Shown here: in pieces, positions 2-58,479 of the stretch
How the letters are laid out: each line of letters opens with the position of its first letter
Position numbering within the stretch: position 1 is the first letter of the stretch
Origin: Methylomonas sp. UP202
GTDB taxonomy: Bacteria; Pseudomonadota; Gammaproteobacteria; Methylococcales; Methylomonadaceae
Reading direction: 5' to 3'
Assembly (NCBI RefSeq): GCF_029910655.1
Contig: NZ_CP123897.1
Coordinates: forward strand, 3,213,547 to 3,277,546
DNA: 64,000 nucleotides
Position numbers and translations under genes: made by a program
The notes under the pieces: model-generated
Told to the model about the DNA's origin: nothing
Databases searched by the model: none
What the model saw: only the letters and a program-made list of their open reading frames with translations

Positions 2-1507
2 ACCGTTTATAGAGTCGGCTCGATTTCCAAGTTGTTTACCGATACCTTGGTGATGCAATTGGCCGAGCAAGGCAAACTGGATATCGACCAAGCTCTACAG
101 CGTTATTTGCCGAACTTTTCGATCAATTCGCGGTTCGCCGATACCGCCGCGATCACGCCGCGCAACATCATGAGCCATCATTCCGGATTGCCCGGCGACA
201 TCGTCAACGGCATGTGGACGCAACACCCTCGGCCGTTCGGACAATTGGTCGAGCAACTCAAATCCGAATACGTCAGCAACCCGGCCAACACGGTATTTTC
301 GTATTCCAATCTCGGCGTGACCTTGCTGGGCACGATGCTGGAAACGGTCAGCGCCACGCCGTTCAGCGTCTATGCCGATCGGCAATTACTCAAACCGCTG
401 GGCATGCGCACCGCTCGATTCGCGCCGGGACTCGAAGGCGAACTGGCGTCGAAATCCTACCGGTTCGGCGACGAAAAACCCGAAGCGCCGCTACGCGACA
501 TGCCGGCAGGCGGCTTGAATGCTAGTGTGTTGGACCTGAGCCGCTTCATGACGATGGTGTTTGCCGGCGGCGCGTCCGACGGCCGCCAGCTATTGAAACC
601 GCAAACCGTCGCGGCCATGCTGAAACCGCAAAACGCCGATGTGCCGCTCGATGCCGGCCTAAAGGTCGGTCTGGGCTGGATGTTGCGGGACAACTTAAAC
701 ATCGGGCCGATTGCCGAACACGGCGGCGCGACGCTGTACCAATTCAGCCTGTTGAGCTTGGCTACCGACCACAAAATCGGCGTCGTCGTGCTCAGCAACT
801 CGCCCAACCAAGCCTTGCAGAAGATCAACAACGCCGCGCTGAAACTGGCGGTCGCGATCAAAACCGGCCAAGCCTTCCGCGAAACCGAAACACCGGCTAT
901 CGAAACCCGCGCGCCAAACGCGGCCGAACAAAGCCAATTCGGCGGCCACTACGCGACGATGTTGGGCTACGTCGATGCCGCGAATACCGGTGACGGCATT
1001 TCCGCCGATTTGAACGGCAACTCGTTGGACATCGTGGTCCGCCCGGACGGCAAATTCGGTATTCGCTATTGGCTGCTGGGCTTTATTCCGATCCAACCGG
1101 AGGAACTGGCCGAGGTCGGTCTGTCGCTGAATGAGATTGCCGGCCGCCGGGTGCTGTTGGCTCATACAGAAGGCCAGACTGTTCCAATCGGCGAAAAAAT
1201 CGTCCCGACCGCGATACCGGCGGCTTGGCGGCGGCGCTTGGGCGACTACCGCATCGTCAATCTAGCCGACGGCGAAGCGATCGTTCCGGAGCGCTGCGCC
1301 TTGCGGGAACGCAACGGTTTTCTGGTGTTGGAATACGGGCTACCCAGCTTCGACATTGAAAAACAGACTTGGGCGCTCAAACCCATCGACGACGAGCAGG
1401 CCATTACCCACGGTCTGGGCCGCGGCATGGGCGACACCCTGCGCGTCGTCAAAATGGATGGCCGGGAGCTGATCGCCTATTCCGGCTATTTGTTGCAAAA
1501 GCAATAA
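2..1507 (+). CDS. Serine beta-lactamase-like hydrolase, 5' partial
   Basis: Class C beta-lactamase/penicillin-binding-protein fold (Beta-lactamase family, PF00144), cut by the window edge. The reading frame is open from the second base. Its first residues, T-V-Y-R-V-G-S-I-S-K, contain the SxxK nucleophile motif just upstream of the first usable TTG, so the real start lies outside the window. A Y-S-N motif (in FSYSNLGV) and an H-G-G motif (in EHGGATLY), the third box equivalent to KTG, follow at normal spacing. After the catalytic domain comes a C-terminal domain of about 190 residues that I do not recognise. Members include esterases, D-aminopeptidases and peptidases; the substrate cannot be told. 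The upstream signal peptide, if any, is not visible. Confidence 0.85.
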   Translation, partial: TVYRVGSISKLFTDTLVMQLAEQGKLDIDQALQRYLPNFSINSRFADTAAITPRNIMSHHSGLPGDIVNGMWTQHPRPFGQLVEQLKSEYVSNPANTVFSYSNLGVTLLGTMLETVSATPFSVYADRQLLKPLGMRTARFAPGLEGELASKSYRFGDEKPEAPLRDMPAGGLNASVLDLSRFMTMVFAGGASDGRQLLKPQTVAAMLKPQNADVPLDAGLKVGLGWMLRDNLNIGPIAEHGGATLYQFSLLSLATDHKIGVVVLSNSPNQALQKINNAALKLAVAIKTGQAFRETETPAIETRAPNAAEQSQFGGHYATMLGYVDAANTGDGISADLNGNSLDIVVRPDGKFGIRYWLLGFIPIQPEELAEVGLSLNEIAGRRVLLAHTEGQTVPIGEKIVPTAIPAAWRRRLGDYRIVNLADGEAIVPERCALRERNGFLVLEYGLPSFDIEKQTWALKPIDDEQAITHGLGRGMGDTLRVVKMDGRELIAYSGYLLQKQ

Positions 1508-1566
1508 TCAGGCGCCGGCGGGCGCTAGAAAAACCGGATTGCGGTATCGCTATACCGAGGGCTATA

Positions 1567-1597
1567 GTGAATCCGCGCGACTGAGTCGCGGATTCAC
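1567..1597. terminator. Hairpin between convergent genes
   Basis: An 11-bp perfect stem (GTGAATCCGCG pairing with CGCGGATTCAC) around a 9-nt loop lies between the end of the beta-lactamase-like gene and the convergent zinc-ribbon gene. No T tract follows on either strand, so it is either a weak bidirectional terminator or a dispersed palindrome. Confidence 0.35.
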
Positions 1598-1712
1598 TGA
1601 TTGCTGGCGCATCCATTCCTGTTAAGCGCCAAAAGCCGATCGTTTTGGAGTGAAACCGGCCTAAAGCTAGCCCAACGCGCCAAGCAACACCCAACATGCA
1701 GCGGAGATCGTC

Positions 1713-1844
1713 ATGAAAATTCTAAAGCCAGCCAAGCGCATCGACTCACAACCGAGACTTACAAGCATTGACGGCACTTGGATTCCGGAAATCGTGTTCT
1801 TTAGCTTATTTCTGATCGATTGGTACTTGGGTTTTCCGATTTGA
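1713..1844 (+). CDS. Possible 43-aa small protein
   Basis: A short open frame with a good ribosome-binding site (GGAG, 7 nt before the ATG). It encodes a basic N-terminus followed by a hydrophobic, aromatic-rich C-terminus (ends F-F-S-L-F-L-I-D-W-Y-L-G-F-P-I). It overlaps the 3' end of the opposing zinc-ribbon gene by 44 nt. No family recognised. The ribosome-binding site is the main support; the length allows chance occurrence. Confidence 0.25.
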   Translation: MKILKPAKRIDSQPRLTSIDGTWIPEIVFFSLFLIDWYLGFPI

Positions 1845-2250
1845 ACGACGGAGGCGGCGGCGTATCCACCGCGCCCGCCAACTGGTCGATCATCTCGCCA
1901 AACCGACTTAAGGCATCGTTGCCGCCTTGAAGATCGTGTAACAGACACAGAGTCGCGCGCGCCTCCGGCCAACGCTGCTGGCCCAATTGTTCATAAAGCG
2001 CCCGGTACAGCTGCCGGATCAAAAAACCGTGCAACAGTTTGGCCGGCGGCGTTTGCTTAAAACTCAACGAACGTAACAGCGCCGGCACCGCGATGGCCGG
2101 CCGGCCGGCCGCGAGACTTTGCATAGCGACGCTCAACCATTGTTCGGCCAAGCTTTCGCAACCCAGGATTTGCCGTAATTCGACGCCGCAACGCGGGCAC
2201 GCCGAGGCCGTTCCGAGCCGGGCATTGCAGGCCGGACAGCGCTGTATCAC
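1801..2250 (-). CDS. Zinc-ribbon protein of the Hsp70 cassette
   Basis: 149 residues. A GTG start overlaps the TGA of the upstream Hsp70 gene (GTGA), which implies translational coupling; a longer upstream frame exists but would run inside hsp70. The N-terminus carries a four-cysteine zinc ribbon (CPAC ... CPRC at about residues 4-22). The rest is predicted mostly helical with leucine- and alanine-rich segments, and the tail is low in complexity with a run of prolines. The function is unknown. Position as the last gene of the Hsp70/GrpE/J/TPR operon suggests a cofactor or client adaptor of that chaperone. This is inference from context only. Confidence 0.7.
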   Translation of the reverse strand: MIQRCPACNARLGTASACPRCGVELRQILGCESLAEQWLSVAMQSLAAGRPAIAVPALLRSLSFKQTPPAKLLHGFLIRQLYRALYEQLGQQRWPEARATLCLLHDLQGGNDALSRFGEMIDQLAGAVDTPPPPSFKSENPSTNRSEIS

Positions 2251-3983
2251 GATTCCAGGTAGTAGATGATGTCGTTCAAACGTTCGACCGGCTCGCGCAG
2301 CCCGGCCTCGTCGCCGTTTTCCAGACAAGTCGAGATGGCTTCGATCAGATCGACCATGTCTTCCTTGTCTTCGGCGGAGACGGTGTCGAACAAGGCTTCG
2401 GCTTTCTTGATGACTTGCCGCGCGGCGGCCACGGCCGGGCTGTCGACGGTCCGTTCAGTTTCACCGGCGGCTTCGCCGAACAAGCCATCGATACGCTGTT
2501 TGGCGCTGCCCAGTTCGCCGCTATCGAAGCGGGAGATCGCATTGTTGATCGTGATGGCTTTTTCCTTGCCGGAGGCTTTCTCCCGCGCCGAAACATGCAA
2601 GATGCCGTTCAAATCCAGGTCCAGCGTCAAGGTGATGACGTTGCCGGCCGGCACGTCCAACAAACCTTCGACCAAAAACTCACCTATTTCGACGTTGTTC
2701 AGCGCATCCGGGTCCTCGCCTTGAAAAATCCGCACGTTCACTTCGCGCTGATTGTCGTGATAGGTCTCGAAAGCTTCGGACTTGCGCACCGGCAACACGC
2801 TGTTTTTATGTACGATGGGCACGTACTGATACGGATAGGGCATGCCGTCCAGATAGCCGACCGCACAAGTGCCGAAGCTGTACGGCGTCACGTCGACCAA
2901 GACCGTACCGATGTTCTCGCCGTTAATCATCGCCGCCTGCATTGCCGCCCCCATCGCCACGCACAGGTCGGGATCGACTTCGCCATGCGGCTCGAAACCG
3001 AATTCGTCGAACAAACGCTCGCGGATGCACGGCGTGCGCGTCGAGCCGCCGACCAGGATGATTTCGTCTATATCCGAGGCGATCAATTTGGCGCCCTTCA
3101 GCGCGATGTGGGTCGCGTCCAGCGTGGCGTTGATGTGGTCGGCGATCAGCTCTTCGTATTCCGCACGCGCCAATTCCATCGTCAAATGCAGCGGCGTGCC
3201 TTGGCGCTCCAGCAAATATTCTTCCTCTATCGTCGCAAACGGCTCGTCGGACAAGCGCAGTTTCGCCTGCTCCGCCGCCCGGCTGATACGCGCCATCGCC
3301 TTGCCGTGCGGCTCGACTTCGATGCCGAATTGCTCGCGGATATTCGCCAGGATGCGATCGACGATCAGTTGGTCGAAATCGTCGCCGCCCAGGTGATTGT
3401 CGCCATGGCTGGCCAGCACCTCGACGACACCGCTCTGCACGTTGACCACCGACACGTCGAAGGTGCCGCCGCCCAAGTCGTACACCAGCATACGCTTGGC
3501 GTCGAGCTGGCCGGCACCGTAAACCAGCGCGGCGGCGGTCGGCTCGTTGATCATCCGCACCACCTCCAGCCCTGCGATTTCCCCGGCTTCGCGGGTCGCC
3601 TGACGCTGGGCGTCGGAAAAATAGGCCGGTACGGTAATCACCGCCTTGGCTATAGGCCGGCCGACATAGGCTTCGGCAATCGCCTTCAAGCGTTTCAGGA
3701 TGATCGCGGAGATTTCCTGCGGCGTGTAAGCCTGACCGGCCATCGTGACTCGCGCGTCCTGACCCATCAAGCGCTTGATCGACTTGACCGTTCGTTCCGG
3801 ATATATCAGGTATTGATTGCGGGCGCTGGCGCCGACCAATATCTCGCCGTTACCGTCTAGCCCGACGAAAGATGGCAAAATCTTGCTGCCGTTGTCGGCG
3901 ATCACGGTGACCTTGCCGTTTTCGACAATCGCCACTTCCGAGTTCGTGGTCCCTAGATCGATGCCGATGATGATGTCGTTCAT
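2247..3983 (-). CDS. Hsp70-family chaperone (second DnaK-like)
   Basis: A 578-residue Hsp70, shorter than housekeeping DnaK (about 638) because the C-terminal lid is reduced; it ends without an EEVD-type tail. The ATPase domain is intact: phosphate-1 loop IDLGTTNS near residues 8-15, INEPTAAALVYG, and DLGGGTFDVSV for phosphate 2. A recognisable beta substrate-binding domain follows from about residue 380. It sits 17 nt after a GrpE-like gene in an operon with a degenerate J protein and a TPR protein. This indicates a specialised chaperone machine rather than the general dnaKJ locus. The substrate is unknown. Paralogues of this type (HscC-like and other Hsp70s) are often dedicated to a few clients. 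Confidence 0.9.
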   Translation of the reverse strand: MNDIIIGIDLGTTNSEVAIVENGKVTVIADNGSKILPSFVGLDGNGEILVGASARNQYLIYPERTVKSIKRLMGQDARVTMAGQAYTPQEISAIILKRLKAIAEAYVGRPIAKAVITVPAYFSDAQRQATREAGEIAGLEVVRMINEPTAAALVYGAGQLDAKRMLVYDLGGGTFDVSVVNVQSGVVEVLASHGDNHLGGDDFDQLIVDRILANIREQFGIEVEPHGKAMARISRAAEQAKLRLSDEPFATIEEEYLLERQGTPLHLTMELARAEYEELIADHINATLDATHIALKGAKLIASDIDEIILVGGSTRTPCIRERLFDEFGFEPHGEVDPDLCVAMGAAMQAAMINGENIGTVLVDVTPYSFGTCAVGYLDGMPYPYQYVPIVHKNSVLPVRKSEAFETYHDNQREVNVRIFQGEDPDALNNVEIGEFLVEGLLDVPAGNVITLTLDLDLNGILHVSAREKASGKEKAITINNAISRFDSGELGSAKQRIDGLFGEAAGETERTVDSPAVAAARQVIKKAEALFDTVSAEDKEDMVDLIEAISTCLENGDEAGLREPVERLNDIIYYLES

Positions 3984-4000
3984 ATGTGTTCCCTGAATGC

Positions 4001-4651
4001 TTAAAGTTTATTGACTTTGACTTCCGCCAATCGCAACACTTGATCTTCGAGTAAAAATCCCTTGCGCAGCTCTTCGAGCACGACGGCGTTTTCCAGCGCC
4101 GGATCGGCGCCGATCGCGACCGTCGTCATGGTCCGCGCGTCGAAGGGCTGGCCGACGCAATCGATCGCAAACACCCGCCGGCGCTGCAGCATTTGTTCCA
4201 GACGCTTCAGCGTAATTTCCTGGCCTTCGCCAACGCTGGCGATGAAACCTACGTCCTGTTTTTTGGAATGCCGGAACAAACCATCGACCGGCCGATAGTT
4301 CTGCAAAGCCCGATGGCCGGCATCGAGCCGGTCGTAAATATCCAGCCATTCCAGTAACATCGCTCGCTCAACCCCACGGCGTTGTTGTTCTAGGCGTTCG
4401 TTGGCTTTCGCCAGTTCGTCCGCCAGGGCTCGATTGTCGGCCTTCAGGGTTACGACGGCATCGCTCAAGCTGTCCAGCGTGGCTTTGAATTGCCGCGACT
4501 CGGCCTTGACTTCGGTTTTCAGGCCGGCCAAATCGCTGAATAAGGCGGTCAAATCCGGTTGGTCGATTGCGGTCAGGTGAGCGAAGTCGGTTTCTTGAAG
4601 ATACTGATGCAAGGCTGCCAGCAATTCGTCTTGCGGGGTTTCTGTCGTCAT
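4001..4651 (-). CDS. GrpE-like nucleotide exchange factor
   Basis: 216 residues. The N-terminal half is a long predicted coiled coil (heptads around residues 50-95). It is followed by a GrpE head-like region with a G-Q-P-F-D-A segment and a C-terminal VLRLAEVKV that matches the end of GrpE. GrpE normally opens the Hsp70 nucleotide-binding domain to release ADP. This copy is divergent and lies directly upstream of its Hsp70. Its ATG overlaps the stop of the preceding J-like gene by four bases, so the two are translationally coupled. The divergent sequence makes it a cassette-specific exchange factor rather than housekeeping grpE. Confidence 0.8.
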   Translation of the reverse strand: MTTETPQDELLAALHQYLQETDFAHLTAIDQPDLTALFSDLAGLKTEVKAESRQFKATLDSLSDAVVTLKADNRALADELAKANERLEQQRRGVERAMLLEWLDIYDRLDAGHRALQNYRPVDGLFRHSKKQDVGFIASVGEGQEITLKRLEQMLQRRRVFAIDCVGQPFDARTMTTVAIGADPALENAVVLEELRKGFLLEDQVLRLAEVKVNKL

Positions 4652-31023: not shown

Positions 31024-31372
31024 GATGATGGCGATGCCGCCGAGTTTTTCGAGAATGTGCAGTTCCTCTCTCTGTTTCGATTGATGGAGGGCCAGTCATT
31101 CCGGTCAGACCACGGCAATGAAGATTCGGACAAGTCTTGCAATATTTCAAGACCTGACCCCATTGACCATTGATTCATGGATTCCATCAGGACAGGGGCC
31201 AATGAAAGCCTCAACAACAAGGCCGGATATATAGGAGCAATATTCTTTTTGTCACGAGCGAATTTTTCTTGCAATACGGGGTAGGCCATATATGACCCTA
31301 TTGATTCGCTAACAATGTAACCTGACCCTTTTTTTGGTTATCTACTCTACCCGTTTTCTCAACGATTTCCCT
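31024..31372. other. Intergenic stretch downstream of three-gene operon
   Basis: About 350 bases without a supported gene beyond the possible 5' extension of the membrane protein. Twice it carries a short C-T-G-A-C-C-C motif (near 31154 and 31322). A T-run near 31328 lies on the wrong strand for a terminator of the operon. Confidence 0.4.
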
Positions 31373-32512
31373 TTATTTAGTATCTCGCTCTGAAAGTAAT
31401 AGTTCGTACTTTTCTTCAATTAATGAACGAACCGCTTTATTAATAGAAGTTGTAACCATTTTTTTAGCATCCGAGTTTGCGGTATTTTTGTAAGTTGTTT
31501 TTATAGGATCAAAAATCAACTCGGATGAAGCAATATTTTTTTTGCTACGTTCTGAATGGCTAAATGAAAAACTAATGTGACATTCGCCGGAATTAGTTCC
31601 TTCTGTGAATGGGAACGTCACGTCAATACGTAGAATATGGTAGTATCTGTAATATTGTTCATCACTAATCAGAAAAATATCATTAAGACGTTCCCCATCA
31701 ATCTTCAATCGTCTTACTGCCTGATTCATCCAAGCGATTTGTGGGTCATCAGGCAACGGAAGCATGTCGTTATCAAGACTTATCTCAATATCATTAACTG
31801 TTCCAGGTGAAAGGCATTTAGGGAAACCAGCGGTAAGCCGCTTAAAGAACCTAACTCTTTCTTCGTTAGTAAAAGAATCAAATGTAATTTGTTGTGGTTT
31901 TGTATCAGATACTAGTTTTAAATCACTTAATATTTTTGCAATACGAGAATTTATTTTCTTATTAACAGCTTCAATTCCTTTTGACGAATGGGTTGACGAG
32001 CGGTCTAGCTTCAGTGAATTGCCTTGCTGTTCAATTGTTACTTCCCCGTTAAAAACTAACTCTCTTTGTAAAAAATCCTGACTAAAATCTTCGCGTTTAA
32101 TTGAGTAAGATATAGTTATTTTTTTACCTTCTACAACAATTGTTGGCTCAGTAACAAACGTTTCGTTTCCATTTTTTGAAAGCATCTGGAAATCTTCTGT
32201 CAATAATGACTTTTTAAGCGGGCTAATCCAATCTAAGTTTTCTCCTGTAAGTTCTAAACTCAAAAGAGGCTTAACTTTTGGTCGCGATTCCCGATTAAAA
32301 TTATTCTCAATTAACTTTAAAAATTCATCCGGGGTAAGCAGTGTTGCGGATAATAAAGGGACAGTAATTTCTTTATCATTATTCCCTACAAATATGCCTT
32401 TTTCTTTGAGCACACCATACACTTCACTATCCGAGATGTGGTTGCTATTTAGTAATCGACGAAGCTCATTGCCATGAGCAATGCTTGAATATATATTAAA
32501 TTCCGAACTCAT
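31373..32512 (-). CDS. Unknown protein C of AT-rich three-gene operon
   Basis: 379 residues, mixed alpha/beta, with no signal peptide or membrane helix. I recognise no family. Its ATG overlaps the stop of the PD-(D/E)XK-like gene by four bases, so it is translationally coupled and should act with it. Notable stretches are N-E-E-R-V-R-F-F-K-R-L near the middle and Y-Y-R-Y-Y-H-I-L-R-I-D followed by an S-F-S-F-S-H-S strand. The base composition is much AT-richer than the flanking genes, a sign of transfer. A partner role in a nuclease-based defence complex is one hypothesis; the two-protein GAPS4 antiphage system has a comparable nuclease-plus-partner make-up, but homology is untested. Confidence 0.7.
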   Translation of the reverse strand: MSSEFNIYSSIAHGNELRRLLNSNHISDSEVYGVLKEKGIFVGNNDKEITVPLLSATLLTPDEFLKLIENNFNRESRPKVKPLLSLELTGENLDWISPLKKSLLTEDFQMLSKNGNETFVTEPTIVVEGKKITISYSIKREDFSQDFLQRELVFNGEVTIEQQGNSLKLDRSSTHSSKGIEAVNKKINSRIAKILSDLKLVSDTKPQQITFDSFTNEERVRFFKRLTAGFPKCLSPGTVNDIEISLDNDMLPLPDDPQIAWMNQAVRRLKIDGERLNDIFLISDEQYYRYYHILRIDVTFPFTEGTNSGECHISFSFSHSERSKKNIASSELIFDPIKTTYKNTANSDAKKMVTTSINKAVRSLIEEKYELLLSERDTK

Positions 32513-33492
32513 TTTGTTCCCTCATCAAGAAAATCTAATATTGAGCGCTCAAAACAAAAGGGGGTTATAACTTCTTTTCGACGATTGAAAACAAGGCGTG
32601 CTTGTTGCGCATCGTTTTCATGCTGCGCAGGATTGTAATCAGGCATTCCTATACTTATGAGCGGAATCGATTCTGATGTGAAATGTAAGGCGTAGGCGAT
32701 TAGTCTTTTATAAGCATCAACACTAAAAGCCTGATTGGCGTAGATGATTAACTCTTTTACACTTTTGTCTGTGTTGCGAATATATGCAAAAATAATATCA
32801 GCAGAGATTAATTCTAATGGAATTATTTCTCCGACTCTGCTTTCATTAACACCCATTGATGTTCCAATTGGAGGATAAAAAAATTCAACATTGCGTGTAA
32901 CTGCGCAAGAAGTTAAATCTTCAGAATTATCTTTTTTTGAACGACGCTTTAAATCATCAACGACTTTTAGTAAAAAAGATGCTCGGGCATTGTCTATAAG
33001 GTAAACAGGTACGTCATTAGATTGTTCGAGCTGGCTATTAGCTAAGTCTGATTTGATGTTCTGTTCAATATTATCCTTATCATTTTGCAACCATACCAAT
33101 AAACCAGAATGATGTTTGTATCGTTTTGCTCCAAACGAATTGGTTACCTCTATTAGTTTTGGGTCATGCCTTGCACACTCAATGATTTCATGCAACTCCT
33201 TCAAATGAGATTTGAAACTAGTTTTTAGTGCCGCGTTTTGTGGATATCTATCAATATTGTTTTTTACCGAAATATGTACAATTTCGGTATGGTCATCATG
33301 AAACGGATTGTGGTACATGAAAAACTGATCTTCTTCATGTGTTGCTCTCTGATTTCCACTTTCAGTTAAGTGCGTCGGTGTGTTGCATTTGATAGTTAGG
33401 TTGTGAATTGATAGTTTCCATCCAATCATTTGTAAAAGAGAGGAAGCTAATTGTTCACCAATTTTTCCTGACTCATTTGATTTTCCACCCAT
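32509..33492 (-). CDS. PD-(D/E)XK nuclease-like protein
   Basis: 327 residues. The first ~80 look like a restriction-endonuclease-like core: G-E-Q-L-A-S-S-L-L (Glu 13 in the first helix), then acidic E-E-D-Q-F-F-M near 53-59, then a beta strand I-V-H-I-S-V-K-N with Lys 77 in the position of the PD-(D/E)XK lysine (a serine occupies the D/E position). The rest is unrecognised, with a late helical region. It lies 2 nt after the NdpA-like gene and overlaps the next, so the three form one operon. Nuclease activity is inferred from a weak pattern; a structure prediction would settle it. Confidence 0.65.
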   Translation of the reverse strand: MGGKSNESGKIGEQLASSLLQMIGWKLSIHNLTIKCNTPTHLTESGNQRATHEEDQFFMYHNPFHDDHTEIVHISVKNNIDRYPQNAALKTSFKSHLKELHEIIECARHDPKLIEVTNSFGAKRYKHHSGLLVWLQNDKDNIEQNIKSDLANSQLEQSNDVPVYLIDNARASFLLKVVDDLKRRSKKDNSEDLTSCAVTRNVEFFYPPIGTSMGVNESRVGEIIPLELISADIIFAYIRNTDKSVKELIIYANQAFSVDAYKRLIAYALHFTSESIPLISIGMPDYNPAQHENDAQQARLVFNRRKEVITPFCFERSILDFLDEGTK

Positions 33493-33494
33493 AA

Positions 33495-34505
33495 CTAATT
33501 TCCCATAATTTCGATAGCTATTGTGGCAACAAGTCCATTCTCTGTGTTTTGAATATCTATTTTTGATATGCTGGAGTTAGCTGACGTAACCAAAGTTATT
33601 CCTTCCGCAATTCGGGTCTGTTTAGTTACGTTTTTTGTGTATCTTGCAAAAGTTGGGCTATCTAGCTGCAAATTATCGGCGAGATCAAATCCGCTTTTTC
33701 CTTGGAGATTGCCCAGTATTTCACCAAATGCATCTTCATCTACATAATCGGCTGAAATTTCTTTAATAGTCCCTAACGAAATTGTTTCAGATTCTTCTAT
33801 ACTTTTAGATACTCGGTTTCCAAGTTCAAGAGCGGCATTAGGGTCAGATATTTTTGATGATATTGCTTTCAATAAAGCCCCCCCGATTTTTGCACAAGCT
33901 TTAGGCGTACTTTGTGGGGTGATTTTTAAGAACGATTCCATCCAATATTTTGTTTTTTGGCTTAATGAATCTATAGCAAACACTCGATTATCAGTTGACA
34001 GAACAAGAGCCCCTCTCTGCATTTTTTCAAGCGAAATACCCGTCCGCTCTATAAGCTGGAATGCACCTGAATTATCGTCTACATCAAGATAACTATCTTT
34101 CGTTTCAATCCGATAGATTCCCAGAGCATCACACGTTACGCCATCAACAATAAGACCTGTAAAAAAAATGATGATTAGTTCCCCACTAGATATTTTTGGG
34201 TGAGTAGATGCACTATATAAGTGTTTCGCAATATTTTGAGATTGTTCGCTAAAACTTGAAGGCTCTGCAAAAACTTGGTTTGTGAAATGATAAACCGCAT
34301 TCAATCCTATATCAGATTCATGATAAAAACCGTAAATATCATTACTTCTTACAAGTGGCGTAAGATAGTAACGAAGGAAAGTATCATCAATGTCTTTAGT
34401 TCTTTTTACCTCTTGATTTGAAAGCGAGTATCCCTCCTCCCTGATTCTATTTCCTACCCGGTGAACAATAATCTTTGCAATTTCTGCTGAGCTTATATCA
34501 ATCAT
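33495..34505 (-). CDS. NdpA/YejK-like nucleoid-associated protein
   Basis: 336 residues, close to the 335 of E. coli YejK. The layout resembles the 37-kDa nucleoid-associated family (PF04245): an N-terminal region with R-Y-Y-L-T-P-L, a central Y-L-D-V-D-D-strand, and a C-terminal half containing K-A-C-A-K-I-G-G-A-L-L-K. Similarity is low, so the call is tentative. The ATG was chosen over a GTG three codons upstream for its better spacing from the GTGGA ribosome-binding site. It is the promoter-proximal gene of the AT-rich operon. Housekeeping yejK binds double-stranded DNA; here a DNA-sensing subunit of a defence system is possible. Confidence 0.6.
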   Translation of the reverse strand: MIDISSAEIAKIIVHRVGNRIREEGYSLSNQEVKRTKDIDDTFLRYYLTPLVRSNDIYGFYHESDIGLNAVYHFTNQVFAEPSSFSEQSQNIAKHLYSASTHPKISSGELIIIFFTGLIVDGVTCDALGIYRIETKDSYLDVDDNSGAFQLIERTGISLEKMQRGALVLSTDNRVFAIDSLSQKTKYWMESFLKITPQSTPKACAKIGGALLKAISSKISDPNAALELGNRVSKSIEESETISLGTIKEISADYVDEDAFGEILGNLQGKSGFDLADNLQLDSPTFARYTKNVTKQTRIAEGITLVTSANSSISKIDIQNTENGLVATIAIEIMGN

Positions 34506-34540
34506 ATTTTCCACTCTTTTGCGATAAAGTTATATCGCGA

Positions 34541-34568
34541 ATTATAACTATCTGGGTAAAGCAATCAA
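34541..34568 (-). promoter_or_regulatory. Sigma70 promoter of three-gene operon
   Basis: On the minus strand a perfect -10 TATAAT and a -35 TTGATT are separated by 16 bases, about 35 bases before the ATG of the NdpA-like gene. It is the clearest promoter in the window. Confidence 0.7.
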
Positions 34569-34639
34569 CGGGCTCAGGTCTTGCAAAATAACATTGCCAT
34601 CCCGCGTAAGCCGACAGGCGATTTTCCGAATGATAGGGC

Positions 34640-34749
34640 CGTAGGATGCGGTAAACAACGTGCACCGCATCGTTCACGATTGGTGCGGCTAGAAAACTCA
34701 CCACACCCTACGCCTGCTTTTGGCTGGACATTTGCCATAGGCACTTTGT
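34640..34749. repeat. Direct repeat, left copy, flanking relBE
   Basis: About 110 bases sharing CGTAGGATG, ACCGCATCGTTC, GATTGGTGCGG, ACTCACCACACC and CTGCTTTTGGCTGGACATTT with the copy beyond the toxin-antitoxin genes. A third, shorter relative occurs between sufC and sufB. Confidence 0.85.
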
Positions 34750-34779
34750 TTCGGCTTTCAAAATAAGATAGTGGGGCGA

Positions 34780-35052
34780 TTAATGCTTGTCTCGATAAAT
34801 CTCTTTTCGATGCCCCAATTCGACGAGCAAAACGATTAATTCGTCGTCTTGAATCTGGCAAATCAAACGGTAGTCGCCAACCCGATAGCGCCAGTAGTCG
34901 GACAATTTGCCTTGCAAGGCTTTGCCGTTAATGCGCGGATTATCTTGTTCGGCTAACTGATCGAGAAAGGCTTTGATTCTGTCGCGGACCGGTTTGTCCA
35001 GCTTGTTGATGGCTTTGGCGGCGCCCGTCTTAAGCCTAATGCTCCATGGCAT
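34780..35052 (-). CDS. relE: RelE-type toxin
   Basis: 90 residues with the ParE/RelE fold: K-A-I-N-K-L-D-K-P-V-R-D-R-I, then W-R-Y-R-V-G-D-Y-R-L-I-C and a final V-L-L-V-E-L-G-H-R-K-E-I-Y. This is the mRNA-cleaving RelE subgroup, which cuts codons at the ribosomal A site. It overlaps the upstream antitoxin gene by 17 nt, the usual coupling. The pair is bracketed by ~110-bp direct repeats, which suggests it arrived as a unit. Confidence 0.92.
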   Translation of the reverse strand: MPWSIRLKTGAAKAINKLDKPVRDRIKAFLDQLAEQDNPRINGKALQGKLSDYWRYRVGDYRLICQIQDDELIVLLVELGHRKEIYRDKH

Positions 35053-35263
35053 TGAGTTGCTGCTCCCATTCCGCCAAGCTGATCGTATTGTCCTTACCGC
35101 TCGTCAATTCCGCTAACGCCGCATCGGCGGCAGCCACATCCGCCAAGTCTTCGAGGTAATCACTAAGGAGATTTTTGATCAGTTGTGCAGGGCTAACGTG
35201 TTCCTGCTCGGACAATTGGCGGAGCAGGTTTGCCGTGTCGTCGTCGATATTGAGTGTCATCAT
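35036..35263 (-). CDS. relB: RelB/DinJ-like antitoxin
   Basis: 75 residues. The N-terminus is a ribbon-helix-helix-like segment (T-L-N-I-D-D-D-T-A-N-L-L), and the acidic C-terminus should wrap RelE. It overlaps the start of the toxin and presumably represses the operon. Confidence 0.85.
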   Translation of the reverse strand: MMTLNIDDDTANLLRQLSEQEHVSPAQLIKNLLSDYLEDLADVAAADAALAELTSGKDNTISLAEWEQQLNAMEH

Positions 35264-35290
35264 GTTGCTGCCTCTATTGTGATTTAGGGA

Positions 35291-35398
35291 CGTAGGATGT
35301 GCTGAACAGCGTGAAGCGCATCGTTCGCGATTGGTGCGGTTCGTAAACTCACCACACCGCCTGCTTTTGGCTGGACATTTGTCATAGGCATTGTTGTT
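35291..35398. repeat. Direct repeat, right copy, flanking relBE
   Basis: Partner of the copy on the far side of the toxin gene; roughly 85 percent identical by eye and in the same orientation. Confidence 0.85.
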
Positions 35399-35869
35399 CC
35401 GTCTGACGGATTTTGGCCGGTTTTGAGCCTACCGCCACGGCCCAATTCACCCAAGTTCACACAGATTCGTAACTATTCAGAGGCCGTTTGGGGGAAGGTG
35501 GTTACCAGTGGCGTCAAGTTCAGCGGTTACAGTCAATGTAAGCCGCTGGCTGAGCGGAGCCGAAGCCAGCGATTTCGCTTCGACTCCGCTCAGCGAACGG
35601 CATAGCTGACATCGAAGTGTTCACCCCCACTCCGTCGGGAGAGGGGGTTTTTACTTCGCGCTGAATAGTTACACAGATTCTAACTCTATTTTTACCTTTT
35701 TACCGAGCGCGGCGGCGACGCCAAGATGGTCAAGGTCAAACGGGTATCTTCTTCGTCCGGCAATCGATCTAAGCGAAGCCCTGCTGGTGTGCATTTTTTT
35801 GGCCATGGCCGTTTTATCCAGTTTGGACACCGACATGTCTTATAGCCAAGTATCGACCGCCGCATTAAT
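35399..35869. other. Gene-free repeat-rich region
   Basis: About 470 bases with no convincing gene. It holds the CTGAGCGGAG palindrome, a GAGAGGGGGTTTTT run near 35640 and two ACACAGATTC-A/T-AAC direct motifs (near 35459 and 35672). Short open frames show no recognisable product. Confidence 0.5.
35550..35593. repeat. Palindromic repeat (CTGAGCGGAG hairpin)
   Basis: Inverted repeat with arms CTGAGCGGAGCCGAAG and CGCTTCGACTCCGCTCAG. One arm also occurs at the end of the 40-bp tandem repeat (near 19837), so it is a dispersed REP-like palindrome. Confidence 0.6.
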
Positions 35870-36916
35870 TCACGACACGCGGCCAAAGCGGATATAGCGC
35901 CGTAGCGGCGAGCCGGCCGACCAGATGAAGGCTTCGGTGTAGTAGTGCATCAAGGCCAAATAGCCGACGATGCCCAAGGTGGCGGCTTTGTAGACCTGAG
36001 TGGAAAACAGCGTTTGCAAGATCAGGTTGACGGCGGCGTCGCCGTGGACCTGCAGCCAGTAAGTCAGCGCGAACGACAACAGCGGCAGCACCGCGACGGC
36101 CGGCAGCCGGCAAGCTTCGGTCAGGCGAAACAGCGCATTCTGCGGGTGGCCGGCGTGGCGGTTAACGTCGTGGGTCGCGTAAAAACTGTAGGCGGTGATG
36201 TCATGCACTAAGCGCGGCATCAGAATCGCCAAAAAGTAATATTGCTGGCTGTACACAAACCAACTGGCAACGACCAACAAGGTGTTGGCCCACAGAAAAT
36301 ACCAGCCCAAGCGGCTGGCGACATAACGCTGGCAGATCCAAGTCGCCGCCAGCAACGCGGCCGTCAACGCCGTGGCGATTTGCAGTATCAACGCCGCCTG
36401 CTCCGGCGCCAGGCTGTTCTTCATGAAAATACCGATGTAGGTGAAGATGCCGGCCGTCACGCTGAGCCACAATTGCAGATAAAACGCCCAAACCGGCAAG
36501 CGGCACACGGCCTTGGCGATGCCGTGCTGTTGTTTCAACACGTGGTAGACGGTCCAGCAGGCGCTGATCAGATAGAGCACCCGGTAGGGTATGAACAAAC
36601 TGCCGACGCCGAAGAACAGCACGATGAAGGCGCTCATTCCCAACAGTTTGCGTTGGAAAGTTTTCAGATAATCGGCGTGGCTGACTAACAGCAGATTGCT
36701 GGCGACGATGTGCGGGGTGCCGAACAAGACTTGAAACAACAAAAAGTGGCTAGGGCTGCTGGGCAGCGCATCGCGCAAGGCGTGGTCGAACAGCCAGCTA
36801 TCCAGGCCGAGCGCGATCAGGCAGATCGGCACGATGCCGTACAGGCTCAATAAAAAACGGAAAGACACCGCCATGCCGGCGGATTGCCCGGAAACCGGAA
36901 GAGTCTGCGCTACCAT
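35870..36916 (-). CDS. Polytopic membrane protein with conserved-looking histidines
   Basis: 348 residues with about nine to ten membrane helices. Histidines fall at membrane edges in F-G-T-P-H-I-V, V-Y-H-V-L-K-Q-Q-H-G, R-L-V-H-D-I-T-A-Y-S-F-Y-A-T-H-D-V-N and M-H-Y-Y-T-E. That arrangement recalls membrane diiron or Brp/Blh-type carotenoid-cleaving proteins, but I cannot confirm homology. No neighbours on the same strand suggest a pathway. It could be an orphan membrane oxidoreductase; the call is descriptive. Confidence 0.75.
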   Translation of the reverse strand: MVAQTLPVSGQSAGMAVSFRFLLSLYGIVPICLIALGLDSWLFDHALRDALPSSPSHFLLFQVLFGTPHIVASNLLLVSHADYLKTFQRKLLGMSAFIVLFFGVGSLFIPYRVLYLISACWTVYHVLKQQHGIAKAVCRLPVWAFYLQLWLSVTAGIFTYIGIFMKNSLAPEQAALILQIATALTAALLAATWICQRYVASRLGWYFLWANTLLVVASWFVYSQQYYFLAILMPRLVHDITAYSFYATHDVNRHAGHPQNALFRLTEACRLPAVAVLPLLSFALTYWLQVHGDAAVNLILQTLFSTQVYKAATLGIVGYLALMHYYTEAFIWSAGSPLRRYIRFGRVS

Positions 36917-36987
36917 GTTGCCACCTGTCGTTATTGTTATCGGCGGCGGGTATTATCGCTATTTTGGGGACAGACTCCAATCCGGGT

Positions 36988-37911
36988 TTAGCGTGTCCCG
37001 CGCTTGCCCTGCAGGCCGCCACTATGCCAGACCACGACGTGTTGGCCGGTCTGAAAATACCCCGCTTGCAGTCTCTCGTAGACTGCGTACAACAATTTTC
37101 CGGTATAGATCGGCTCCAGCTCGATACCATGTCGGGCTTCGAACGCCGCGATAAACGCCAGCAGTTCCGGCGAGGTTCGAGCGAAGCCGCCGAAATGGTA
37201 ATCTAGCCACAGACGCCAACCACCGCTATCGGGCCGGCCTTGAACGGACAACAGTTCGCGGATGTCGCGGTACAAAAACTCGCCGCCTTTTAAGGCCGGT
37301 ACGCCGACAATCTCCACGCCGGGCACCACCGCGCCGACCGCGCCGGCCAACGTGGTGCCGGTGCCGCAAGCCAGTGCCAGTATGTCGTAAGGCGTATCGA
37401 TTTCCGCGACTGCTTCGGCCACGCCTTGCCAAGCCAACTCGCCGGCACCGCCTTCGGGGAGCCAATATTGCCCCGACTGCCTATCCGGCGGGTCGTGCCA
37501 TTCCCGATACGCGCGCAAGCCCCGGTATTCTTCGCGCGACACAAAGCGCAGTTCCATGCCCCATTCCAGCAAGTCAAGCAAGGTCGGATTCAGCCGCGCC
37601 GGACGCTCGCCGCGCACAAAGGCGGCGGTCTTCAGTCCCAACTCGCGGCCGGCATAGGCCAAGGCGTGCAAGTGGTTGGAATAGGCGCCGCCCATGCTGA
37701 CGATGGTTTCGGCGCCGCGCCGCAGGGCATCATTCAGCGGGTATTTGAGCTTGCGCCATTTGTTCCCGGATATCACCGGATGCAGCAAATCGTCGCGCTT
37801 GATCGACAACGACACGCCGCGCGCGCTCCAGGCCGGATCGTCGATCCGCTGTAACGGCGTCGGCGCGAATTGGTCGGCTAAGGCCCGCAAACGCGGGTGC
37901 AGTTCGTTCAA
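36988..37911 (-). CDS. D-cysteine desulfhydrase / ACC deaminase-like PLP enzyme
   Basis: 307 residues of the tryptophan synthase beta superfamily (fold type II). The PLP lysine lies in S-G-N-K-W-R-K-L, after S-I-K-R-D-D-L-L; M-G-G-A-Y-S-N-H and A-C-G-T-G-T-T are the substrate and phosphate loops. DcyD-type enzymes release pyruvate, sulfide and ammonia from D-cysteine; ACC deaminases open the cyclopropane ring. Sequence alone does not decide between them. The start overlaps the stop of folP (ATGA), so the two form an operon. Confidence 0.85.
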   Translation of the reverse strand: MNELHPRLRALADQFAPTPLQRIDDPAWSARGVSLSIKRDDLLHPVISGNKWRKLKYPLNDALRRGAETIVSMGGAYSNHLHALAYAGRELGLKTAAFVRGERPARLNPTLLDLLEWGMELRFVSREEYRGLRAYREWHDPPDRQSGQYWLPEGGAGELAWQGVAEAVAEIDTPYDILALACGTGTTLAGAVGAVVPGVEIVGVPALKGGEFLYRDIRELLSVQGRPDSGGWRLWLDYHFGGFARTSPELLAFIAAFEARHGIELEPIYTGKLLYAVYERLQAGYFQTGQHVVVWHSGGLQGKRGTR

Positions 37912-53812: not shown

Positions 53813-55291
53813 ATGACTCAACCAAAAGATCAAATCCGAAAAAACAGCATTTGGGTGGTAATTGGGAAATTTGCCGAACAAACCAGTCAGTTCTTATTCG
53901 GTATAATACTCGCTAGATTATTAACCCCGGAAGATTTTGGCCTGGTAGTTGCCATCCAAATCTTCACGGGACTGGCGGGATTCATATCAGGCGCTGGCAT
54001 GGGCGGCGCCCTAATCCAAGCAAAGCAAGTACATGCCGCCCATTTTCAAGTTGTATTTACAGTCCAATTGTTGATCTGCTGCGTCATCTATGCGTTATTC
54101 TACTATTCTGCTCCGTACTTGGCCGATTACATGCGGAATCCTATCTATACGGATCTAATTCGCGTATCCGCCTTGAGCTTCCTAACCAGACCATTCCTTA
54201 ATGTACCTAGATCGAAATTAATTAGGGACATGAAGTTTAATATAATAACCACAAATGCAATAATAAGCGGACTAGCAACCGGTATTGCCAGCATAACTTT
54301 TGCTCATTACAATCACGGCGTATGGAGCCTAATATGGGGCGGGCTGGTCGGCGCTATAACCATAATCCCCCTTACAATTTATTTTGCAAGACTCCCGTTG
54401 CGCATTAAATACGATTACCAAATAGCCAAAAATCTCGGCATAATGGGGGCGAAGTTTACCGCAAACGATATTTTAGTTTATCTACGCAATCAAGCTCCAA
54501 ATTTTATAATTGGAAAAACATTGGGCCCATATAGCGTCGGACTTTTTAACAAAGGCGAAAGCCTAAGCGCCTACCCATTTTCATTTATTGCCGCATCAGC
54601 ATACGATACAGTTTTCAGAGCATTATCCTCCTATCAAGACAACCTGGATAAAAGTAAATATATCTTCCTAAGGACCATAACTTTAGTCACAACTTACACC
54701 TTCCCATTTTATGTAGGCCTACTCTGGACATCGGAAGAATTTATAATAACCATTTTCGGCGAAAAATGGTTGCCGGCCGCCGCTCCACTCCAAATAATTT
54801 CAATATCCAGAATGTTCGCATGCATAGGAAACCCATCTGGAGCCGTTCTTGCAGCCCAAAATACACTCGGCGCTGAAATAATACTTCAATTTGTCAGTCT
54901 GCTTACAATCAGCGCAGGCTGTTGGTACGGAACAAAACAAGGCGATTTAACCATAATATCTTTAGCATTGTTACCTGGCATTGTTTTTATACACCTTACC
55001 GCTACATTAGTAGCTATGAATAAAATTCGAGTTTCATTACACAACCTACTGACAGCATTGAAACCCGCAATAATTTTAAATAGCTTATTATTTGTCGAAC
55101 TCGCCGTAACTGCATGGGCCCTGGATCGATACCAACCCAATTTGGAGATAAAATTACGGCTATTTTGTTTAGTAACATCCGGTAGCGCCTTTTACACTTT
55201 TTTGTTCCTAGCGCTACCTATCCAGTCGCTAAAATCGGAAGCGGAGAAATGGAAAGGGCTTTTGCGAATTAAAAAATATAAAACAGCATAA
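53813..55291 (+). CDS. Polysaccharide flippase (Wzx-like)
   Basis: 492 residues with 12-14 membrane helices. F-G-L-V-V-A-I-Q-I-F-T-G-L-A-G-F and the early G-K-F-A-E-Q-T-S-Q fit the lipopolysaccharide-biosynthesis/PST flippase family (PF13440). It would move lipid-linked glycans across the inner membrane. Composition is clearly AT-richer than the SUF region, as for other genes in this island. It is the first gene of the polysaccharide locus. Confidence 0.9.
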   Translation: MTQPKDQIRKNSIWVVIGKFAEQTSQFLFGIILARLLTPEDFGLVVAIQIFTGLAGFISGAGMGGALIQAKQVHAAHFQVVFTVQLLICCVIYALFYYSAPYLADYMRNPIYTDLIRVSALSFLTRPFLNVPRSKLIRDMKFNIITTNAIISGLATGIASITFAHYNHGVWSLIWGGLVGAITIIPLTIYFARLPLRIKYDYQIAKNLGIMGAKFTANDILVYLRNQAPNFIIGKTLGPYSVGLFNKGESLSAYPFSFIAASAYDTVFRALSSYQDNLDKSKYIFLRTITLVTTYTFPFYVGLLWTSEEFIITIFGEKWLPAAAPLQIISISRMFACIGNPSGAVLAAQNTLGAEIILQFVSLLTISAGCWYGTKQGDLTIISLALLPGIVFIHLTATLVAMNKIRVSLHNLLTALKPAIILNSLLFVELAVTAWALDRYQPNLEIKLRLFCLVTSGSAFYTFLFLALPIQSLKSEAEKWKGLLRIKKYKTA

Positions 55292-55360
55292 GAACTAAAA
55301 TTTAATATCCACCATTATGATAAAAAACCATAAAATCAACTCAGCAGAAGTACCAGTCGA

Positions 55361-56308
55361 TTATTTTTGATCACCTCGATCAAAAAAAACAATTAAATTG
55401 CGATACAAACCATACGGCAGTAAAGCGGGCAACATGTACTTTAAATCGGCAATACAAAAATAACCGGAAAATAACAACTTCCTAAACAAAGTTTGCGCGG
55501 TTATCAAATCTCGATCCCAAAAATTTTTATATGCTTGCCGCAACAATCTCCCCTTAGTAACATCAGCCACTCGTTCTTTCCCAATCTTATTAACAACATC
55601 CGGATGAGCACGTAAAAACTTCTGCTGAACATGCCAGTGATTTAGTGCGATTTTTAACCGATTCTTAGTAATCTGATCACCGTCATGGTGAAAATAATAG
55701 GCCAATACTTTCTCAACCCGATGAATAAGCCCCGGTATTGCTATGCGCAGCCACAAATCATAATCCATACACGACGTCAAGGATTCATCAAACCCCCCAA
55801 CTTGGTCAATAACAGGCTTACGAATCAAAGCAGCGTGAATCGGCCAAGGACAAGCAGTCAAAATCTCAAGAATTTTTTCCTTGCGTTCAAAATCATCCGG
55901 AATATAAGGTCGACAAAACTTGTCCTGCAACCCTAGATTTTGCCAACCACAGTAAACCAGCACGACATCGGGATTCGACACCAACTCCGCTACCATCACA
56001 CTTAAGAACTCCGCATCCCAACCATCATCAGCATCCAAAAAAGCCACAAATTCACCGCGCGCCAACTTTAATCCCACATTCCTCGCGGCACCAGCCCCTT
56101 GGTTAGCTTGCGTCACAACCGATATCGCTGGATAGTAGCCGGATAAACGGTTTAAAATTGCCAAACTTTCGTCGCGAGAACCATCGTCAACCACAATAAG
56201 CTCAAAACAAGAATAGGTTTGCTCGAATAAACGTGTAATTGTATTTTCAATATACTTTGCCGCATTGAAGCACGGCATAATTATTGATACAAGTGGATTA
56301 TCAGACAT
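55361..56308 (-). CDS. GT2 glycosyltransferase, reverse orientation
   Basis: 315 residues of glycosyltransferase family 2. N-terminal S-I-I-M-P-C-F-N-A-A-K-Y, then V-V-D-D-G-S-R-D-E-S, then the metal-binding F-L-D-A-D-D-G-W. Uses a nucleotide sugar to extend a glycan on the cytoplasmic face. It is the only minus-strand gene within the polysaccharide island, so it may have been inserted independently. Acceptor unknown. Confidence 0.92.
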   Translation of the reverse strand: MSDNPLVSIIMPCFNAAKYIENTITRLFEQTYSCFELIVVDDGSRDESLAILNRLSGYYPAISVVTQANQGAGAARNVGLKLARGEFVAFLDADDGWDAEFLSVMVAELVSNPDVVLVYCGWQNLGLQDKFCRPYIPDDFERKEKILEILTACPWPIHAALIRKPVIDQVGGFDESLTSCMDYDLWLRIAIPGLIHRVEKVLAYYFHHDGDQITKNRLKIALNHWHVQQKFLRAHPDVVNKIGKERVADVTKGRLLRQAYKNFWDRDLITAQTLFRKLLFSGYFCIADLKYMLPALLPYGLYRNLIVFFDRGDQK

Positions 56309-56521
56309 AACACCTCAAAATCATTAAAATCCTATACATCCAAAAATAAAATTTCATAAGAGCCAATATAAAAACATGAAGCATTCAATTAATTTTAGCA
56401 GACTTTTTAGAAGCATCGGCTCACGATAACTCAGCAGAGTTTCGGCATATTTCACAAGCATTCACATATTAATCACTAAAAATATGTTAAATATCGAAAA
56501 CCAATAAAAATATTAATCAAT

Positions 56522-57295
56522 ATGAGCCGATATCCTAGCCCCATCGTATTAATGTATCACGGAACACCGAAAGAGACACCTATCTCCCGGTATTCCTTAC
56601 AGGCTCGCCTGTTTAAAAAGCACATACAATACTTTAAAAAAAATGGCTGGCATACTGCGTTATTTAGAGATTTACTCGATATAAAATCGCTTCCAGAAAA
56701 GACAGTCATCCTAACATTTGACGACGGCTATCTCGATAATTACTTAGGAGCATATTTACCTTTGTTAGAAAACCAAATGAAGGCGACTTGGTTTATAGCG
56801 ACAAAACACATCTCCAACAGCGCAAACTGGCTACCTTTCCGATCGCCTCAAAACGACTTGCTGTCGCACGAACAAATTCTGGATATGCATCGCAACCAAA
56901 TGGAAATCGGCTCTCACACCTGCAGCCATAGAGAACTACCAAGCCTCCACCTAAACGCGCAAATCGACGAACTTATTCACTCGAAGAAACTGTTAGAAAC
57001 TTTGACAAATAGCTCGGTCACCAGCCTAGCCTACCCTTTCGGCCGTTATAACACTGATTCGCTGATCGCCGCGAGGGAGGCGGGATACAACTTGGCGTGT
57101 ACTACTCAGCCAGGATGGCTACATTTAGAGCCAAATCCGCTGTTAATTCGGAGAATTACCATTTTTTCCGGCGACGATGACAAGATTTTAGCGCGAAAAC
57201 TGTCTTTTGCCGATAATGATGTCTCTTGGCCGAAAGTGATGCGTTATTATTCCGACAGGCTCCTAGATCGACTCGGATTAGTAAAGTCCGAGTGA
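56522..57295 (+). CDS. Polysaccharide deacetylase (NodB-type)
   Basis: 257 residues of the CE4/polysaccharide deacetylase family. L-T-F-D-D-G-Y-L gives the catalytic aspartate pair, and S-H-T-C-S-H-R-E-L the zinc histidines; Y-P-F-G-R-Y follows. It should remove N- or O-acetyl groups from a glycan. No signal peptide is evident, so action may be cytoplasmic or at the membrane. Confidence 0.9.
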   Translation: MSRYPSPIVLMYHGTPKETPISRYSLQARLFKKHIQYFKKNGWHTALFRDLLDIKSLPEKTVILTFDDGYLDNYLGAYLPLLENQMKATWFIATKHISNSANWLPFRSPQNDLLSHEQILDMHRNQMEIGSHTCSHRELPSLHLNAQIDELIHSKKLLETLTNSSVTSLAYPFGRYNTDSLIAAREAGYNLACTTQPGWLHLEPNPLLIRRITIFSGDDDKILARKLSFADNDVSWPKVMRYYSDRLLDRLGLVKSE

Positions 57296-57525
57296 TTTTC
57301 CTTCTGCATTTCTGCAAATGAACCAGCGTCAGTGGCATCGGCAACCAATTAACAACCCATTGATTTTAAAGCCCATCGCGTCCAGGTAGGCGGTCAACCG
57401 CCGGATCATCTTTTAGTTTCATGGCGATAAAAATATTTTTTGTCTACACTCTCTACCGGAGTTGCTAAAGACCCAAAAGATATCCGTTACGAGCTTCCTT
57501 AAATCATTTTCGCTATGTCGAACAA

Positions 57526-58479
57526 ATGGATCCAAAACTAAAACTAACTTATGCCATGTGCAGCTACAATCGGGCCGATCGGCTTCGAAAATTAGTGGAT
57601 GCTATTCGGGAGCAAGAATGCCCTATCCCTTACGAAATTTTAGTCGTTAACAACAACAGTACCGACCACACCGAACTTGAACTAGCCGAATTGTCGACAA
57701 ACCCAGGAGCTACGCTTCGATGGGTTACCGAAACCGAACAAGGCATCGTCGCGGCCCGCAACCGCTGTTTAATTGAAGCGATGAGTTCTGACATAATGGT
57801 ATTTATCGACGATGATGAAATTCCATTACCCGGACTGCTATACGCTGCTACCGACGCCATCTGCAACGAAGGTGCTCAAGTTGCCGGAGGGAAAGTGGTG
57901 GTCGACTTCACTGGTCAACGACGGCCAAAATGGCTCGGAGACGAATTACTTGGCTTTCTCGCCGCCACTGATTACGGTGAAGCGCCGTTTTGGGTGACAA
58001 GCAAGGACACACCGTTATGGACTGCGAATATCGCATACGACATGAAAATATTCCGCGAAAATCCAGATCTACGGTTCGACAAGCGTTACGACAGGCAGGG
58101 AAAAGCAATCGGTGGCGGTGAAGATGTTATGATGTTCGGCCTCCTTCTGAATTCCGCTATGAAAATCCGCTACCGCCCAGATATGACGGTTCTACATTCC
58201 GTCGAACCTTGGCGGTTGAAGCCTAGCTACTTCCTAAAATTACATTTTAGCTCCGGCTTTAGAAGCGCCTATAATTGCGGAATTAAATATAAACGCAATT
58301 TTTTTGGAGTTCCTCTATTTCTATTTAGTCAGGCATTAAAATTATTTTTTTTGTGGCTAACTTTGGCATTAAAGAACCAAAAACTTGAATTAAGGAAATG
58401 CATGAATTTCACACATGCACTTGGGCAAATATGCGGTTACTTTAGTCGATGGAAAGAAAACCCAGACTATAGGATCTAA
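57526..58479 (+). CDS. GT2 glycosyltransferase
   Basis: 317 residues of GT2. It has M-C-S-Y-N-R-A-D-R-L, V-V-N-N-N-S-T-D-H-T and the DxD equivalent V-F-I-D-D-D-E-I-P. The C-terminal 70 residues contain a hydrophobic stretch (F-L-F-S-Q-A-L-K-L-F-F-L-W) that may tether it to the membrane. It precedes the ligase gene by 18 nt and is probably co-transcribed with it. Confidence 0.92.
   Translation: MDPKLKLTYAMCSYNRADRLRKLVDAIREQECPIPYEILVVNNNSTDHTELELAELSTNPGATLRWVTETEQGIVAARNRCLIEAMSSDIMVFIDDDEIPLPGLLYAATDAICNEGAQVAGGKVVVDFTGQRRPKWLGDELLGFLAATDYGEAPFWVTSKDTPLWTANIAYDMKIFRENPDLRFDKRYDRQGKAIGGGEDVMMFGLLLNSAMKIRYRPDMTVLHSVEPWRLKPSYFLKLHFSSGFRSAYNCGIKYKRNFFGVPLFLFSQALKLFFLWLTLALKNQKLELRKCMNFTHALGQICGYFSRWKENPDYRI

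Follow-up and report, generated by a model that had tools for sequence, protein, structure and literature searches.

Within the 64,000-nucleotide stretch of Methylomonas sp. UP202 DNA analyzed here (the window), three coupled genes on the minus strand (positions 31373 to 34514) raise the question of whether they form an undescribed defense system, as a preliminary description had proposed, or a variant of a known one. The genes are read in the order gene 1, gene 2, gene 3, with a gap of 2 nt between the first two and an overlap of 4 nt between the second and third, and the ORF coordinates therefore bear out the tight coupling that had been described. The operon is also AT-richer than both flanks, as had been noted, with a GC content of 35.8% compared with 55.9% and 57.0% in the 5 kb to its left and right, respectively, and 53.8% in the window as a whole. 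None of 1,218 sampled frames of 3,142 bases had a lower GC content, and the frames that came nearest overlap the operon itself. Gene 1 (33495 to 34505, minus strand) encodes 336 amino acids from an in-frame ATG at 34505, the equivalent start in most relatives, or 339 amino acids from a GTG at 34514. Genes 2 (32509 to 33492, minus strand) and 3 (31373 to 32512, minus strand) encode proteins of 327 and 379 amino acids.

Using the NCBIfam models, it was found that gene 2 encodes GapS4a (NF047933; E value of 3e-90, 302.5 bits against a cutoff of 270) and gene 3 encodes GapS4b (NF047934; 1.4e-106, 356.3 bits against a cutoff of 300), with neither gene matching any other model at E values up to 1. 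Because both exceed the curated cutoffs, the core of the operon is identified by sequence as the known antiphage system GAPS4. The relation to GAPS4 that the preliminary description had raised as a possibility is thus real, and the system as a whole can no longer be called undescribed, since genes 2 and 3 fall in named families. GAPS4 is described as a two-gene system, and the original work on it is reportedly that of Mahata et al. (Nat Microbiol, 2024). Here, gapS4a and gapS4b adjoin in the same order with their 4-nt overlap, whereas the operon differs from the two-gene loci of Escherichia coli, plasmids and several genomes in that the pair is preceded by a gene of the NA37 family. As the two-gene arrangement, absent here, may not be truly defining, the operon was filed as a GAPS4 variant.

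Residues E13, D55, S75 and K77 of GapS4a (the latter two forming S75-x-K77) were invariant in all 29 aligned sequences. The order Glu, Asp, Lys recalls the PD-(D/E)XK pattern, yet Ser75 occupies the position where (D/E) is usual. Judged by this pattern, GapS4a is a nuclease candidate, likely of the PD-(D/E)XK kind, and the lysine that had been placed in the catalytic position of a nuclease-like second protein corresponds to the invariant K77. No nuclease family in Pfam was matched over 21 aligned members, as the single hit to RE_XamI (E value of 0.15, in 1 of 21) is at chance level. In PHROGs, GapS4a matched phrog_7059 (1.7e-11), a family of unknown function; comparison of GapS4a with phage records and a single-protein GapS4a scan of viral contigs returned no result. 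Structure prediction had been suggested as a check for each protein, and for GapS4b (mean pLDDT of 75.9) it gave no convincing match: the top PDB match, a kinetochore protein (E value of 6.1e-04, TM score of 0.23), and the top viral structure match (TM score of 0.31 to 0.35) were both set aside as uninformative. A sequence search of solved structures returned nothing usable for any of the three genes, and PADLOC (2023), likewise suggested, gave a single unconvincing match (0.017) across them.

Gene 1 matched the Pfam family NA37 (PF04245; E value of 4.8e-17, 62.8 bits against a cutoff of 24.6). Its AlphaFold2 model (mean pLDDT of 83.0) matched E. coli YejK (9be2; E value of 8.9e-07, probability of 1.00), the only PDB match under an E value of 0.001 among 161 matches with E values up to 10. 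The TM score of 0.44 and root mean square deviation of 12.0 indicate that the agreement with YejK is better in parts than over the whole. By this model, gene 1 is predicted to have a YejK-type fold; the proposed likeness of the first gene to NdpA/YejK is upheld by both the family match and the predicted structure. Gene 1 resembles E. coli YejK in family and predicted fold but differs from it in being encoded within a mobile defense-type cassette. The match in PHROGs was to phrog_1974 (8.2e-07), a family of unknown function. At E values of 0.01 or less, PF04245 matches 10 of the 15 members of the NA37 alignment (A10). A YejK domain is also reported among the validated systems of DefensePredictor (PMC13092281, section 5). 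NCBIfam holds a model for a nucleoid-associated anti-phage protein, DS1_1, with a companion model, DS1_2, and from these names we infer that the DefensePredictor system is DS-1. The operon and DS-1 share a YejK-type protein as a defense component, but the partner in DS-1 is DS1_2 and not GapS4a/b; NA37 of the window gave no match to DS1_1 at E values up to 10, and genes 2 and 3 matched only GapS4a and GapS4b.

Loci were selected by GapS4a alone, with a scan of species genomes yielding at least 21 loci (a divergent locus, L087, was missed by the scan), and NA37 was sought by a profile search over the ORFs of each. In this set, chosen regardless of NA37, an NA37 gene was adjacent to the pair and on the same strand in 15 of the 21 loci. 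It lay directly upstream in 12 (L041 to L052), found in Methylobacter, Yersinia, Luteibacter, Atopomonas, Dechloromonas, Rouxiella, Photorhabdus and Pluralibacter. The hosts of the upstream type span seven proteobacterial families. In three others it lay directly downstream: L059 and L060 from Alistipes (Bacteroidota) and L061, on a contig labelled Mycoplasma. Two of these 15 loci are partial, as L061 begins inside gapS4a and L042 ends 259 bases after gapS4a. NA37 was not found in the remaining six loci (L053 to L058) within the flanks covered, with L058 ending inside gapS4a. Intergenic gaps, measured at 11 loci of the upstream type (L087 and 10 of the 12 above), ranged from -8 to +8 nt. Genome G677 (L026), which is not among the 21 loci of the scan, also shows the downstream order; its gapS4a is split over two frames.

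No NA37 was found at two plasmid loci, where GAPS4 is two-gene, or in five GAPS4 records from IMG/VR, of which one begins at gapS4a (L031) and another ends inside gapS4b (L035). Two-gene GAPS4 was matched in 4 of 5,426 E. coli genomes, with NA37 absent beside the pair at both of the loci examined, and two upstream-type operons, used as DNA queries, returned nothing from E. coli genomes. A further genome, found by GapS4b (G770), carries no NA37 on its contig of 5,482 bases, where the sequence upstream of gapS4a is only 748 bases long.

In the converse search, the NA37 protein of the window matched 6 of 237 genomes of the family, and all six matches were at GAPS4 loci. GapS4a matched 8 of 200 family genomes; one weak match (G610; 19.7 bits, six stops in frame) was dropped as not a real GapS4a, leaving NA37 in six of seven, and these family counts are not independent of those from the 21 loci, as the samples overlap (L041 is G511, L042 is G639, L043 is G527 and L047 is G547). 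In the seventh genome (G625), gapS4a is cut short by an early stop in its frame, 138 bases before the end of the contig. A match in G005 (20.2 bits) was likewise rejected as not a real GapS4a. Genome G485, of the same species as the window, matched neither the GapS4a nor the NA37 family model. GapS4b was found in 2 of 369 genomes drawn from the class and in 1 of 398 drawn from the phylum, counts that include the genome of the window itself. Broken copies were observed for gapS4b in L021/L047 and, as two frames, in L057, and for gapS4a in L026 and G625.

Taken as a whole, the NA37 family has no fixed link to GAPS4. With PF04245, 20 genomes yielded 23 hits; 11 of these fell at GAPS4 loci, and the other 12, for the most part housekeeping YejK, lay in different settings. 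The Pfam model missed four GAPS4-linked NA37 genes found by the custom profile (G547, L044, L049 and L052). Among 14 control genomes, PF04245 was matched in one (E. coli) and the GapS4a and GapS4b models in none.

Trees were built from GapS4a (31 rows) and GapS4b (27 rows). In both, the upstream type forms one side of a branch (14 and 12 rows, respectively; support of 100/100 in each), as does the downstream type (four rows in each; 100/99 for GapS4a and 96/93 for GapS4b). Two-gene rows fill the remainder of both trees and none lies inside the upstream or downstream branch, the deep order being unsure because the branches are long. When 66 pairs of sequences from 12 loci were compared, NA37 distances correlated with those of GapS4a (r = 0.917) and of GapS4b (r = 0.947), uncorrected for shared ancestry. 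By these sequence comparisons, the three genes are steadily co-inherited, in two gene orders; the co-conservation of the triple that had been put forward as a check is borne out by the 15 of 21 loci, the one-branch trees and the six of six converse matches. In the NA37 tree, which omits L090, a branch with 100/100 support separates the tested YejK and DS-1-like rows of Proteobacteria from the GAPS4-linked NA37, gene 1 included, and from two NA37 proteins of Firmicutes that occur in other settings. Approximately unbiased (AU) tests on this tree rejected neither a single clade of the upstream type (P = 0.388) nor one of the upstream and downstream types together (P = 0.149), and recruitment of NA37 once or twice is thus compatible with the data.

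The three genes and approximately 54 bases upstream constitute a block common to Methylobacter (31373 to 34559, minus strand), sharing 91.3% DNA identity with L022. Beyond it, the sole DNA match to L022 was a short segment in another part of the window; the shared block ends near the ends of the operon. In 150-base steps, identity to L022 and L024 was 95 to 99% across NA37 and 75 to 96% across gapS4a/b, pointing to probable recombination inside the operon. The site itself was compared across related genomes, 22 of 37 of which gave matches; the loci compared in detail leave aside G566 as well as partial matches and second places. The block to the left extends to 30624 in G485 and to a point between 31061 and 31139 in six genomes of the same genus, while an element to the right, from near 35671, is common to G485, G481, G574 and G602. 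Between the two, G485 carries an AbiLi-like ATPase (1.7e-83) adjoining a 146-amino-acid ORF without a match, G481 a retron-type reverse transcriptase (RT_V, 4.8e-159), G574 a PDC-M55C-like protein (1.9e-59) and G602 ThsB-like TIR proteins (2.8e-33 and 3e-17), these PADLOC names denoting sequence matches only and not function. An AbiLi/AbiLii pair (4.6e-100 and 1.3e-21) is present in G460, which has the left block only, and other genes follow the shared left block in G584 and G530. Read from these comparisons, the operon occupies an exchange site that holds alternative defense-type cassettes in related genomes, in keeping with the defense context suggested earlier. Beside the operon lies a RelE/ParE-type toxin gene (34780 to 35052) with an adjacent 75-amino-acid ORF (35036 to 35263), taken as its partner solely from its position; the pair is flanked by imperfect direct repeats.

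Effects on topoisomerase activity have been reported for E. coli YejK and its homolog StaR (PMC10053502). Given these effects and the YejK domain in the validated defense set, we propose that NA37 acts at DNA together with GapS4a/b. We lean towards regarding the operon as a GAPS4 subtype of three genes, with NA37 probably one of its working components. The novelty lies in the regular presence of NA37 as the third gene in one lineage of GAPS4, the GapS4a/b core being already known. In the mechanism we propose, GapS4a would be the nuclease effector, working with GapS4b, and NA37 would bind DNA and help the complex find phage DNA, or be licensed on it, with phage DNA perhaps told from that of the host by its topology or replication state. 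As two-gene GAPS4 exists without NA37, the latter would modify target choice or activation in its lineage and not be indispensable to GAPS4 generally. No report linking NA37 with GAPS4 was recognized in the literature covered, which lay outside the original GAPS4 paper and most subscription journals.

NA37 might instead spare the cell until infection, by coating or remodeling host DNA or by restraining GapS4a/b. Such a role would suit a member of a nucleoid protein family whose gene comes first in the upstream type, a place that many antitoxin genes take in their operons, but NA37 is encoded last in the downstream type and two-gene GAPS4 does without it, and we consider this protective role unlikely. 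That NA37 is a free-standing defense or accessory gene, sharing the cassette and nothing more, is far harder to reconcile with the fixed adjacency in 15 of 21 loci, the absence of any two-gene system from the upstream and downstream branches, and the presence of all six family matches of the window's NA37 at GAPS4 loci. NA37 does occur with other partners (DS-1-like pairs in L088 and L089 and an unknown partner in L090) and among metabolic genes (L039 and L040), but we give this explanation very little credence.

Regulation of the operon's own transcription by NA37 would depend on the sequence upstream of gene 1, where a consensus scan identified a promoter-like site, TTGATT-16-TATAAT (34541 to 34568, minus strand; 10 of 12 positions). 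The preliminary description had assigned one strong promoter to all three genes. The -10 part of the site is kept in Methylobacter L022, but the -35 part is not, and promoter-like sites were no commoner than in shuffles (8 found against 11.9 expected); a shared strong promoter is therefore only plausible. Between the -10 box and the start codon of gene 1 lies a dyad, GCGATA-6-TATCGC (34521 to 34538, minus strand), which reads as a possible operator. In L022 it persists with a single base change in the spacer, and an NdpA2 protein is said to take part in the transcriptional control of a Pseudomonas element. However, the dyad is truncated in L024, although all three L024 frames are full length, and the last position, as in the downstream type, would be unusual for a regulator, making autoregulation improbable.

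Returning to the three-gene subtype with NA37 acting at DNA, a broader and distinctly speculative extension is that NA37/YejK serves as a plug-in sensor of DNA topology or replication state for unrelated defense systems. In GAPS4 there would have been at least one recruitment of such a protein, and perhaps two (for the upstream and the downstream type), with a separate one in DS-1, and the trigger would be the supercoiling or fork state of the invading DNA and not its sequence. If so, a housekeeping-type nucleoid protein family would have become a standing antiphage part across several bacterial families, and, taken with DS-1, this would suggest a recurring coupling of DNA topology or packing to immunity. 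GAPS4 with and without NA37 offers a natural comparison, and one genome, G705, carries both a two-gene GAPS4 (L053) and the divergent three-gene one (L087).

The three-gene GAPS4 operon of Methylomonas sp. UP202 lies at a chromosomal site of variable defense-type cassettes (window positions about 31139 to 35671), represented in related genomes by loci L028, L118, L119, L120, and L122. The cassettes at this site differ among the related genomes and include GAPS4, an AbiL-like type, a DUF262-type protein, a retron-type reverse transcriptase, and TIR proteins. Beside the operon, a RelE/ParE-type toxin gene (window 34780 to 35052) and an adjoining 75-amino-acid ORF lie between imperfect direct repeats, 74 and 42 nt long with 85 to 88% identity (window 34634 to 35399). 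Comparison of window positions 34580 to 37200 with the same-species genome yielded 57 matches and, as most fell inside 35284 to 35673, a dispersed repeat is present near these positions.

NA37 genes were also found with other partners. At L088 (80 to 1862; a genome from the same family as UP202) and L089 (4648 to 7062; a Pluralibacter metagenome-assembled genome), the NA37 gene is coupled to a gene whose product matches DS1_2, one of the two NCBIfam models of the DS-1 defense system, at 1.6e-8 and 5.1e-18, respectively, both under the model cut-off. These couples are distant DS-1-like pairs. A Dechloromonas genome carries, besides a three-gene GAPS4, an NA37 gene overlapping a 483-amino-acid gene (L090, 43 to 2512), for whose product Pfam and PADLOC gave no match and NCBIfam nothing better than 0.054; this couple is possibly another NA37-partner system.

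In Escherichia coli EH01-18-02, a two-gene GAPS4 (L085, 6001 to 8074) is housed in a prophage, with tail fiber assembly and tail sheath genes on either side. At L087 (genome G705), the gene directly upstream of the three-gene GAPS4 (2 to 4477) encodes a 1,491-amino-acid protein, one half of which resembles a RecQ helicase and the other a UvrD helicase. A second AT-richer stretch of the window (53813 to 58479) contains flippase-, glycosyltransferase-, and deacetylase-like ORFs (names assigned by eye).
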